A stretch of DNA of 64,000 nt from Haemophilus pittmaniae (lineage in GTDB: Bacteria > Pseudomonadota > Gammaproteobacteria > Enterobacterales > Pasteurellaceae), in the NCBI RefSeq assembly GCF_900186995.1, contig NZ_LT906463.1, positions 186,001-250,000 of the forward strand, given 5' to 3'. Position numbers and translations under genes: made by a program. Of the stretch, positions 3,246-62,092 are shown piece by piece. Under the pieces are notes generated by a model, which saw nothing but the letters and a program-made list of their open reading frames with translations, ran no database searches and was not told where the DNA came from. Positions within the stretch are counted from its first letter, which is position 1. Each line of letters begins with the position of its first letter.

Positions 3246-3307
3246 AAACGCCTCTCCGATTTTAAAAGTTTTGCAAAAACAGCACATAAGTCATTGATTT
3301 TATTATA
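3246..3307 (-). repeat. 61-bp intergenic repeat, copy 1
   Basis: On the minus strand it begins TAATAAAATCAATGACTTA and ends GAGAGGCGTTT. It sits in the 321-bp gap between the divergent genes ypfJ and lysM, so it is the one copy not on the 3' side of a gene. It may overlap the promoter region of either gene. Confidence 0.85.
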
Positions 3308-3449
3308 ATTGATTTCAAATTCACAATTTTGCATTTTTTTCGTGCTGAATGTTGAACTATTTGCCGTTTTACCTGACCAAAAGTCGCCGTTGTCAAATGA
3401 TAAAACGTCACGGCAGAAATTATTTTCAACCAACAAAAAGGAACAAATT

Positions 3450-3890
3450 ATGGGTTTATTCGATTTTGTCAGCGATATCGGTAAAAAAGTATTTTCTAAA
3501 GAAGAAGATGCATCAAAAGCCGTCACCGACCACATCAATGCCGACAATCCAGGGATTGAAAATCTTAATGTGAGCGTACAAAACGGTACTGCAACCATTC
3601 ATGGCGTAGCTTCGACTGCTGCTGCGTTAGAAAAAGCCGTTCTCATGGCTGGCAACATCCAAGGTATCAGCAATGTAACCATTAATGCCGATATCGGTAA
3701 CGGGGAATCCTTGGCGGGTGACGATGCCTTTTATGTTATTCAAAAAGGTGACACCCTTTGGAAAATTGCCGAAACCCACTACGGTAATGGTGCCAAATAT
3801 ACTGCAATCGTAGATGCCAACAGAGAAGTTATCAAAGATGCGGATAAGATCTTCCCTGGTCAAAAAATCCGTTTACCAAAATCGCTTTAA
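3450..3890 (+). CDS. lysM: BON and LysM domain protein (YgaU/Kbp-like)
   Basis: Cytoplasmic-looking 146-residue protein with no signal peptide. Residues 1-90 contain a BON domain and residues about 95-146 a LysM domain (YVIQKGDTLWKIA...PGQKIRLP). Domain order and length match E. coli YgaU, reported as a potassium-binding protein (Kbp). The ATG at 3450 has AAAAGGAAC just upstream and gives the family's usual N terminus (MGLFDFV); the reading frame is open further upstream but without support. Monocistronic, followed by its own terminator. Confidence 0.92.
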   Translation: MGLFDFVSDIGKKVFSKEEDASKAVTDHINADNPGIENLNVSVQNGTATIHGVASTAAALEKAVLMAGNIQGISNVTINADIGNGESLAGDDAFYVIQKGDTLWKIAETHYGNGAKYTAIVDANREVIKDADKIFPGQKIRLPKSL

Positions 3891-3906
3891 TCATTAACAA
3901 AATATG

Positions 3907-3936
3907 AAAGTGCAGCCTTAGAGCTGCACTTTTTTA
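3907..3936 (+). terminator. Terminator of lysM
   Basis: Stem AAAGTGCAGC/GCTGCACTTT with a short loop, followed by TTTTTT. Confidence 0.88.
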
Positions 3937-4101
3937 TGTGCGATATTGCCGATAAAATACCCAAAACCGACTGAATGTCGGGGATTTTTGCGGTTTCTAT
4001 CGACTGTTCGATTTTCTTTCGCTATAATTCGGCGGTTTTTTATTTCTTAACAACGTGTTCGGTGTGGTTTTTACCGAGTGCAACATTAATTGAGGTTACA
4101 A

Positions 4102-5400
4102 ATGTCATTAAATATTGAAACAACTCAAGGTTTAGAGCGTCGTGTGACGATCACCGTTCCGGCTGAAACCGTAGAAAAAGCGATCCGTGAAGAATTCAAA
4201 CGCGCAGCTAAAAATGTGCGCGTAGACGGTTTCCGTAAAGGCCACGTTCCGGCTCACATTATTGAACAACGTTTTGGCGCATCTATCCGTCAAGATGTAC
4301 TAAATGATCTATTACCTCGTCATTTCTTTGACGCGGTTATTGCAGAAAAAATCAACATTGCAGGTCGTCCGACTTTTGCAATCGAAACCTTTGAAGCTGG
4401 TAAAGATTTAGCTTTCACTGCAACTTTTGAAGTATATCCAGAAGTGGAATTAAAAGGTTTAGAAAACATTAAAGTTGAAAAACCAACCGTAGAAATCAAC
4501 GAAACCGATGTCGACAATATGATCGATGTATTACGTAAACAACAAGCTACTTGGGCTGAAAGCAACGATGCAGCGAAAGCGGATTCCCGTGTAACTATCG
4601 ATTTCGTCGGTTCTGTTGACGGTGAAGAATTCGATGGTGGCAAAGCTTCCGACTTCGTATTATTCATGGGCCAAGGTCGTATGATTCCAGGATTCGAAGA
4701 TGGCATCGTTGGTCACAAAGCAGGCGAACAATTCGATATCAATGTGACTTTCCCAGCGGAATATCATGCTGAAAACTTAAAAGGTAAAGACGCGAAATTT
4801 GCGATCACCTTGAAAAAAGTAGAAGAAATGGAATTACCGGAACTTACCGATGAATTCGTTGCTAAATTTGGTCCTAACACCAAAACTGTTGCCGATTTAC
4901 GTGCAGAAATCCGTAAAAACATGGAACGTGAATTAAAAAATGCATTGGTTTCCCGCGTTAAACAACAAGTGATCAATGGCTTAATCGAACAAAACCCTAT
5001 TGATGTTCCAGCTTCAGCGATTGAAGAGGAAATCAATGTGTTACGTAACCAAGCTGCACAACGTTTTGGTGGTAATGCACAACAAGCAGCACAATTACCA
5101 CGTGAATTATTTGAAGCTGATGCAAAACGTCGCGTGCAAGTCGGTTTATTGTTCTCTGAAGTGATCAAATCAAACGAATTAAAAGTTGATGATGAACGCG
5201 CGAAAGCAATGATTGCCGATATCGCATCAGCTTATGAACAACCGGCTGAAGTGATCGAATACTACAGCAAAAACGAAGAATTGATGAACAATATTCGTAA
5301 TGTAGTGTTGGAAGAACAAGCCGTTGATGCAGTATTAGCAAAAGCGCAAGTTACTGAAAAACCATCTAGCTTCAATGAAATTATGAATCCACAAGCATAA
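4102..5400 (+). CDS. tig: Trigger factor, ribosome-associated chaperone and prolyl isomerase
   Basis: Binds nascent chains at the ribosome exit tunnel. The 432-residue length is identical to the E. coli protein. Order: N-terminal ribosome-binding domain with the signature GFRKGHVP near residues 43-50, FKBP-type isomerase domain (about 150-245; [13 protein letters not shown] and [13 protein letters not shown] are visible), then the helical C-terminal chaperone arms. The ATG at 4102 is preceded by TGAGGTTACAA; a TTG four codons upstream is a weaker alternative. It lies upstream of clpP-clpX, the usual gammaproteobacterial order, but a terminator-like hairpin separates them. Confidence 0.97.
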
Positions 5401-5420
5401 TTTTTTCACTTTACGCATAG

Positions 5421-5479
5421 AAATGCGGTTGATTTTTTAAAGTTTCGAAAACTGCAAAAAATCACCGCATTTTTGTTTT
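5421..5479 (+). terminator. Probable terminator of tig
   Basis: Inverted repeat AAATGCGG..TGATTTTTT / AAAAAATCA..CCGCATTT with a loop of about 17 bases, then TTTTTGTTTTT. The core is one base away from the uptake signal (AAATGCGGT versus AAGTGCGGT). Confidence 0.7.
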
Positions 5480-60394: not shown

Positions 60395-61699
60395 ATGAAT
60401 CAAGAAAGACTCAACGAAATCGAAAAACCATTACTTCACCTTGTGGAACGCGATGTGGTTCCTGCACTTGGCTGTACTGAACCTATCTCTTTGGCGCTTG
60501 CAGCAGCAACCGCAGCTAAATATTTAGGTAAAACACCGGAACGTATTGAAGCTAAAGTATCACCAAACTTAATGAAAAATGGATTGGGTGTTGCAGTACC
60601 TGGAACCGGCATGGTGGGCTTACCTATTGCCGCAGCGATTGGTGCTTTAGGCGGTGACCCTGAGGGTGAATTGGAAGTGTTAAAACACATCACGCCAGAA
60701 CAAGTTTCCCAAGCCAAAGCGATGCTTGATAAAAAGCTCGTTAATGTCGATATTCATCAAACCGATCATATTCTATATTCGGAAGCCGTGTTGTTTGCGG
60801 ATAATGACTGGGTGAAAGTAGCCATTCAAGATCAACACACAAATATCATTTTGATTGAAAAAAATGGCGAAGTTGTTTTTGAGAAAGAACAGAATGAATG
60901 TGCGGATTGCGACCCTTATGATATTTTCAAACAGGTGAGTACACGTGAAATCTTTGAATTTTCTTGTGAAGTTGAGCTCGATAAAATCCGCTTTATCGGA
61001 CAAGCAGCCGATCTAAACCGTGCGCTATCTGACGAAGGATTACGTGAAAATTACGGCTTACACATTGGCAGAACATTACGCAAACAAGTTGGCAGCGGTT
61101 TAATGTCAGACGATTTGCTCAGTAAAATTATGATTGAAACCACTGCAGCCTCCGATGCGCGTATGGGCGGGGCTACATTGCCGGCAATGAGTAATTCAGG
61201 TTCAGGTAACCAAGGTATTACCGCCACTATGCCCGTGGTTGTGGTCGCCGATTATTTAAATGTGAGTGAAGAAAAACGTCTCCGTGCCCTTTTCTTATCA
61301 CACTTAATGGCCATTTATATCCACAGTAAATTACCCAAACTGTCTGCCCTTTGTGCGGTAACAACCGCCTCTATGGGAAGCTGTGCGGGTATCGCTTATT
61401 TACTTACGGGAAAATTCGAAACAGTAAGCATGGGGATTTGCAGCATGATTGGCGATATCAGTGGCATTATCTGTGACGGTGCATCCAATAGCTGCGCGAT
61501 GAAAGTGTCCACCAGCGTGGCTTCCGGCTATAAATCAGTACTCATGGCTATGGATGAAACCCACGTTACGGGTAATGAAGGTATCGTTGAGCATGATCTC
61601 GATCGCACTATCGATAATCTATGTTCGATTGCCTCTAAGAGTATGCACCATATCGATCGCCAAGTGATTGAAATTATGGTGAGTAAACCCTGTCCTTAA
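60395..61699 (+). CDS. cyuA: Cysteine desulfidase-like protein (CyuA/YhaM family, UPF0597)
   Basis: 434 residues with the iron-sulfur serine-dehydratase-alpha-like fold: ALGCTEPISLALAAA near the N terminus, GSGNQGITATMPVVV mid-protein and conserved cysteines including SCAGIAYLL and ICDGASNSCAMK. In E. coli CyuA degrades cysteine to pyruvate, ammonia and sulfide anaerobically. No transport partner (cyuP) or regulator (cyuR) is adjacent. Starts 17 bases after the cupin gene. Confidence 0.9.
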   Translation: MNQERLNEIEKPLLHLVERDVVPALGCTEPISLALAAATAAKYLGKTPERIEAKVSPNLMKNGLGVAVPGTGMVGLPIAAAIGALGGDPEGELEVLKHITPEQVSQAKAMLDKKLVNVDIHQTDHILYSEAVLFADNDWVKVAIQDQHTNIILIEKNGEVVFEKEQNECADCDPYDIFKQVSTREIFEFSCEVELDKIRFIGQAADLNRALSDEGLRENYGLHIGRTLRKQVGSGLMSDDLLSKIMIETTAASDARMGGATLPAMSNSGSGNQGITATMPVVVVADYLNVSEEKRLRALFLSHLMAIYIHSKLPKLSALCAVTTASMGSCAGIAYLLTGKFETVSMGICSMIGDISGIICDGASNSCAMKVSTSVASGYKSVLMAMDETHVTGNEGIVEHDLDRTIDNLCSIASKSMHHIDRQVIEIMVSKPCP

Positions 61700-61718
61700 G
61701 ATAAAAATCACCGGTTTT

Positions 61719-61767
61719 AAAAGTGCGCTTAGAAAATCCTCCAATAGCTAGTCCTGGGCGCGCTTTT
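61719..61767 (+). terminator. Probable terminator of cyuA
   Basis: AAAAGTGCGC (61719-61728) pairs with GCGCGCTTTT (61758-61767), one G-U pair. The loop is long (29 bases). Confidence 0.6.
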
Positions 61768-61884
61768 AGATTCTCCAGCGAATGCATGTATATGTTCTTA
61801 CCGCCCATTAAGAATATCGCCATCGCCCTTTCATCTCCTCATCATCTTTTATTTGCCAAATAATCTGTTTTTTTAAACGAATAC

Positions 61885-61945
61885 TAATAAAATCAATAAC
61901 TTACATACAGTTTCAGCAAAAACTCTGAGAATCAAGGGGGCGTTT
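61885..61945 (+). repeat. 61-bp intergenic repeat, copy 12
   Basis: Begins TAATAAAATCAATAACTTA and ends AAGGGGGCGTTT. In cyuA orientation in the 391-bp cyuA-yhcH gap, which also holds copy 13 and two hairpins; the remaining sequence shows no gene. Confidence 0.92.
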
Positions 61946-61983
61946 TGCTGGTTGGACGATTACAATTCGTAAATAACCCACAT

Positions 61984-62020
61984 AAAAAACGGTCAAACCA
62001 CTCAAGGCTTGACCGTTTTA
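61984..62020. terminator. Hairpin terminator in the cyuA-yhcH gap
   Basis: AACGGTCAA/TTGACCGTT stem; the T-run is longer on minus (TTTTTT), so it most likely ends yhcH, possibly both directions. Confidence 0.8.
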
Positions 62021-62030
62021 AAGACATTTC

Positions 62031-62092
62031 TAATTAAATCAATCAGTTAAGTTTCTTTTTAAGAAAAACTTCATCTTTCGACAGGGCGATTT
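62031..62092 (+). repeat. 61-bp intergenic repeat, copy 13 (divergent)
   Basis: Begins TAATTAAATCAATCAGTTA and ends ACAGGGCGATTT. Its right end overlaps the yhcH stop codon (62091-62093), as copy 7 does with argH. Confidence 0.7.

Follow-up and report, generated by a model that had tools for sequence, protein, structure and literature searches.

Dispersed intergenic repeats with sites for the nucleoid protein IHF are already known in bacteria. In the RIB/RIP (BIME-1) repeats of Escherichia coli, an IHF site lies between REP palindromes. For REP sequences, excerpts of PMC1525189 describe binding of IHF and gyrase and a location between convergent genes, and excerpts of PMC2229807 discuss the Correia/NEMIS repeats of Neisseria, whose 155-bp form carries an IHF site, as miniature inverted-repeat transposable elements (MITEs) with terminal inverted repeats. 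The uptake signal sequences (USS) of the Pasteurellaceae are another kind of repeat, lineage-specific, present in hundreds of copies and often found at gene ends (excerpts of PMC1626085 and PMC1852404). Here we describe a palindrome-free family of intergenic repeats in Haemophilus pittmaniae, recognized by 13 copies in a window of 64,000 bases (bases 186001-250000 of the 2,181,355-base chromosome NZ_LT906463.1; composition 42.2% in the window).

The H. pittmaniae element resembles RIB/RIP in that an IHF consensus site is found in a dispersed intergenic 3'-end repeat, often between convergent genes. It differs from RIB/RIP in a strict length of 76 bp, in having many more copies, and in the absence of REP palindromes (no pairs in the unit, and no fixed-offset inverted pairing in the flanks of 100 copies); since these palindromes are absent, the element is not a member of RIB/RIP (BIME-1). 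With Correia/NEMIS it shares the intergenic location and the IHF site, but it lacks the terminal inverted repeats described for those elements. We see an even chance, judging from the sequences, that the family represents about 360 lineage-specific DNA sites, each of which would be a 76-bp nucleoprotein element around an IHF-binding site, with an architectural or topological role.

Anatomy of the unit and its candidate IHF site

All 13 copies that an earlier note on this DNA had read are present, at 47-73 bits with a sequence model. The unit had been given as 61-62 bases and is corrected here to about 76 bp, since the conserved block TTTTTAAAnCAAyyC lies before TAATAAAATC. The complete layout is TTTTTAAAnCAAyyC, TAATAAAATCAATgacTTA, seven variable bases (N7), TTTT, four variable bases (N4), AAAAC, about 14-16 bases, and GGGGCGTTT. 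A sample of 864 kb, consisting of the 64-kb window and a further 40 stretches, each of 20 kb, was scored with the sequence model and contained 143 full copies, which extrapolates to about 361 copies per 2.18-Mb genome. Genome-wide, the first part of the motif has 169+203 matches with at most three mismatches, and the reversed control pattern has 4+7.

The distance from TAAT to GCGTTT is exactly 61 bp in 92 of 103 rows; three of the 103 (lengths 52-53) are unrelated and were removed before the flank test on 100 copies. Sixty-three copies align without gaps over 80 columns. Positions 5-11, 16 and 17, which are AAATCAA and the TT of the site, reach an information content of 2.0 bits. For identity, column conservation and copy quality, an in-register set of 139 of the 143 copies was used (four dropped). 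At positions 44-47, 73 copies of this set have AAAA or TTTT, where independent columns would give 17; this A-tract may lie on either strand and is a feature of DNA shape. No longer composite element was seen, and half copies almost exclusively adjoin whole copies.

The conventional IHF consensus is WATCAANNNNTTR (excerpts of PMC10380432), and it is found exactly in 142 of the 143 copies, within the most conserved block. Sites were also chosen by their left and right parts alone, so that the IHF block itself did not select copies; 138 of the 140 sites chosen in this way have a perfect IHF site and two have six mismatches. The chromosome encodes both IHF subunits: ihfA and ihfB exceed the NCBIfam cut-offs and their products match solved IHF chains, while an HU-like gene scores just below its cut-off. 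We infer that the element carries a candidate IHF-binding site through which IHF would bind and function. Exact IHF sites also occur in the left flanks (seven, versus 0.6 expected from letter-shuffled flanks), and in three cases the main site follows at a distance of 38-39 bp. The second IHF-like sites at this spacing belong to copies in the sampled stretches L098, L101, L086 and L090 (three exact, one with one mismatch).

Three properties argue for action at the level of DNA, not RNA: RNAalifold detected no consensus pair in the element alignment, the length is nearly fixed, and positions 44-47 may be either AAAA or TTTT. In the proposed mechanism, IHF would bind both AATCAANNNNTTA and the TTTTTAAA arm upstream of it, bending the DNA. 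A second factor would read the right half, or take its position from it; this half contains TTTT, AAAA, the either-strand A-tract and GGGGCGTTT. The complex might then serve as an architectural or topological site on the DNA at the ends of transcription units, where supercoils from adjacent genes come together.

Placement at the ends of genes

Genes were called by our own open reading frame (ORF) caller and ARAGORN, not taken from annotation. By context, 71 of the 143 copies are convergent, 59 tandem and four divergent, five overlap called genes and four lie at stretch edges. A copy occupies 32 of the 36 convergent gaps of 121-200 bp, 26 of the 62 tandem gaps of 201-400 bp, and four of the 94 divergent gaps of at least 81 bp. 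In tandem gaps, the upstream stop is nearer than the next start for 29 of 35 copies oriented with the gene and for 19 of 24 oriented against it. The earlier observation that copies follow the 3' ends of genes and are scarce in promoter gaps is thus strengthened over the 864 kb. It had been joined to a second claim, that 12 of the 13 copies read in the direction of the preceding gene, which is not supported as a bias. A copy in a convergent gap points away from one of the two genes whichever way it is turned, so only tandem gaps test orientation; most copies are in convergent gaps, and among the tandem ones 35 follow the direction of the gene and 24 oppose it (binomial p=0.19). The earlier claim on placement holds, and the argument drawn from an orientation bias falls.

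Occupied gaps are spread more evenly than under independent occupancy (gap coefficient of variation 0.567 versus 0.699; 0.65% of simulations). In the whole sample, 61 copies are on the leading and 82 on the lagging strand (p=0.094). The arm with positive skew (stretches 500001-1620000) has 23 plus and 47 minus copies (p=0.006), and the other arm 35 and 38 (p=0.82). A polarity along the chromosome arms like that of FtsK guide sequences was considered and is not established.

Within the window, eight of the 13 copies are convergent, four tandem and one divergent. The convergent copies are copy 2 (9879..9956, + strand, 61.6 bits), copy 3 (16049..16125, -, 52.3 bits), copy 6 (29885..29961, +, 69.1 bits), which faces a tRNA-Ser gene at 30046-30135 and is convergent for that reason, copy 7 (35366..35443, +, 63.1 bits), copy 9 (43546..43623, -, 73 bits), copy 10 (44662..44739, +, 68.8 bits), which is 91% identical to copy 9 and starts at a stop codon, copy 12 (61869..61946, +, 66.3 bits) and copy 13 (62016..62091, +, 47.3 bits), which shares the gap of copy 12. 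The tandem copies are copy 4 (17701..17775, -, 53 bits), copy 5 (25379..25455, -, 63.3 bits), copy 8 (38379..38456, +, 65.3 bits), located after rho, and copy 11 (53872..53948, -, 67.1 bits); all four are oriented with the gene, by chance in a small sample or through a weak trend. Copy 1 (3245..3320, -, 58.0 bits) is, as had been noted, the only one in a divergent gap, and a partial second copy lies beside it (3208-3243, -, 23.1 bits). A search of the window against Rfam at gathering scores matched no curated family for the element and returned only a glycine riboswitch and tRNA. The riboswitch (RF00504, 25120-25228, -) is upstream of the ORF at 23664-25163.

One alternative is that the element is a transcription terminator or an RNA element of the 3' untranslated region, a reading that we consider very improbable. 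A simple scan detected a terminator-like hairpin upstream of 50 of the 143 copies, so the earlier description of the copies as past a terminator hairpin applies to these, but not "usually". The T-tail of the upstream hairpin coincides with the T-tract of the element in 17 copies (control mean 1.05), and eight right ends form part of a terminator-like hairpin (control mean 3.85, maximum 7). Such overlaps favor a terminator; however, only two of the 143 units have a terminator-like hairpin inside, so that the unit does not qualify as an intrinsic terminator, and copy quality does not depend on whether the gap is convergent or on the direction of a tandem copy (p=0.80). A reading by RNA structure was rejected since there is no consensus fold, and the suggestion of a small RNA or a stop to readthrough finds no support for the same reason and from the two internal hairpins.

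Insertion, possible mobility and maintenance

The intergenic gaps were compared with those of a sister genome, the congener G009, from which 40 stretches of 20 kb were taken. Ten element gaps had adjacent orthologues. Only sister gaps of 30-600 bp were kept, so that two element gaps, one convergent and one tandem, dropped out because their sister gaps measured 1382 and 1269 bp. For gene pairs adjacent in both genomes, the element gaps exceed those of G009 by a median of 73 bp (n=8; differences of -41, 127, 79, 67, 119, 66, 38 and 95 bp), and control gaps differ by -6 bp (n=75; p=0.0003). No copy was found in 800 kb of G009 (best match 16.5 bits). As the element gaps are longer than those of the sister, the element is added DNA and arrived by insertion.

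Among 140 genomes of the family Pasteurellaceae, two have a match at E<=1e-6 when the best candidates per genome (76 or 33, depending on the model search) are scored: H. pittmaniae, and one genome with a single copy, which is at the same place as a copy of Haemophilus sputorum. When all candidates were scored in ten congeners, none matched a query that included a copy. In H. sputorum, the copy is placed between hisD and hisC on a contig of strain CCUG 13788 (L058), within a his-operon stretch 93-94% identical to the his operon of H. pittmaniae, and this identity indicates that the copy came with imported DNA. The operon itself was apparently transferred between genera. The hisD-hisC junction of H. 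pittmaniae has no element and holds an ORF of 391 amino acids (L106:2306-3481, -), for which no Pfam match above the cut-off was found; this junction is one presence/absence difference. Viral contigs of IMG/VR contained no copy of one exact pattern, plasmids no match to one copy used as query, and phages nothing beyond one weak 36-base match. In the open-licence literature, no title or abstract opening describes the element family. The family is thus lineage-specific, and as a family it was not found in the relatives searched, by best candidates per genome and, for the ten congeners, by all candidates.

An added segment of about 73 bp, the absence of the family from ten congeners, and the H. 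sputorum his allele with a copy where H. pittmaniae has the 391-residue ORF would all be expected of a MITE-like non-autonomous mobile element, in which the conserved positions serve transposition, copies turn over by birth and deletion, and there is no host function. Two head-to-tail copies (L049:19054 and 19145) also agree with this explanation, which has the most weight among the alternatives and which we rate as rather unlikely. In keeping with it, H. pittmaniae also has a single gene for a REP-associated tyrosine transposase (RAYT; L103:1456-1986, NF047646, 179 bits), preceded by an ORF that presumably encodes something resembling a restriction specificity subunit. Against it, no element lies within 1.5 kb on either side of the transposase gene. 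With REP/REPIN sequences and their RAYT genes the family shares an intergenic location and a high copy number; it differs in that the unit lacks a palindrome and no copy accompanies the RAYT gene.

The ends of the copies also argue against mobility. In 100 copies, no target duplication or inverted repeat was found at any fixed offset, and matches between the flanks at variable offset are hardly above shuffled controls, except for one subset with a shared direct repeat. There is no terminal inverted repeat, as the ends TTTTTAAA and GGGGCGTTT are not complementary and form no consensus pairs. The shared repeat includes GTCAC, which is near both ends of 12 of the 143 copies, near the right end only of four and near the left end only of one (control windows 2 and 0). 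The nine pairs listed with both repeats are ATGTCACATTT-like direct repeats 96-98 bp apart, among them L052:16328/16424, L053:16503/16600, L084:14302/14399 and L090:11089/11185; an exact solo repeat is at L088:17263. The 12 flanked copies are poorer matches to the core than the remaining 127 (71.6 versus 85.2 bits, p=0.006). In this subset, the two near-palindromic repeats around an IHF site look like the operators of a second protein. Since they share one direct repeat, it is not a site-specific duplication of random targets. Apart from two special pairs, at 0.93 identity (inside a duplicated region) and 0.92 (with a shared right flank), few close pairs exist among the 139 copies (the best at 0.91 and 0.87, versus a shuffled maximum of 0.868). 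The earlier suggestion of a mobile element is thus supported for origin by net insertion, but terminal inverted repeats and fixed-offset target duplications were not found and close pairs are few.

Over the 139 copies, mean pairwise identity is 0.69, close to that of column-shuffled copies, and the 99.9th percentile is 0.855 versus 0.822 after shuffling. The strongest correlations are between near-neighbour positions. Subfamilies among the copies were looked for in this identity and correlation analysis and rejected. At 28 positions the conserved base is present in at least 95% of copies, and 43 of 3892 letters deviate. The score distribution has two modes with little between them, and partial or decayed copies are rare, a point against mobile turnover. 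That the free positions are randomised while the key positions stay intact implies maintenance of the family, by selection or drive. Copies in divergent gaps, in genes or at stretch edges (12 in all) score lower than convergent ones, at 79.1 versus 84.1 bits (p=0.025).

The maintenance signs and the IHF consensus in 142 of 143 copies best fit the earlier suggestion of a selected 3' element that would bind a nucleoid protein. Several points weigh against the IHF-centred nucleoprotein site proposed here. The IHF match is a match of sequence alone, and we put at 1-2% the chance that a consensus of this kind would contain some stretch fitting that of IHF. Equal copy quality across contexts would be expected from a process acting on the whole genome no less than from a local role, and convergent gaps are also where insertions do least harm. 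The evenness appears in one of two statistics only, the gap-level count dispersion (0.66 versus 0.64) not being unusual. The insertion test comprises eight gaps, one of them 41 bp shorter in H. pittmaniae.

Relation to uptake signals

The USS core AAGTGCGGT occurs 205 times in H. pittmaniae (control 36), versus 1276-1481 times in each of ten congeners, and genus mates carry the Hin-type USS; H. pittmaniae has lost most of its uptake signals. One may suppose that the element serves as a new DNA uptake signal, in which a motif of DNA shape, 76 bp long and centred on IHF, took over from the Hin-type USS and is kept by an uptake bias during competence. We find this distinctly less probable than mobility. 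Lineage specificity, the many copies, the lack of subfamilies, maintenance and somewhat even spacing agree with it, as does an open frame for ComEC/Rec2, which is, however, the only competence gene looked for. Like the USS, the element is present in hundreds of lineage-specific copies, often at gene ends. It is overrepresented and maintained, but at 76 bp it is far longer than the 9-bp USS core, and it arose by insertion, as judged from the sister gaps, and not by point mutation. It is also intergenic, with five of 143 copies overlapping called genes, whereas 50 of the 85 remaining USS in the 864 kb are coding, and the remaining USS keep their AT-tract context. In G009, 25 of 52 gene ends that carry an element in H. 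pittmaniae have a USS no more than 150 nt from the stop, as do 18 of 59 others (p=0.079); in H. pittmaniae itself the counts are 0 of 52 and 7 of 59 (p=0.014). The co-location of sister USS with element ends is not significant, and is suggestive only.

The family adds a palindrome-free member to the intergenic repeats with IHF sites. As a family it was found in one lineage only, where it fills 32 of 36 mid-sized convergent gaps, and it keeps near-invariant positions among randomised copies. It also coincides with a large loss of the Pasteurellaceae uptake signal. If the element were indeed an uptake signal, uptake specificity would have been rebuilt from an inserted repeat, and a new kind of genome-wide signal would have replaced the 9-bp USS.

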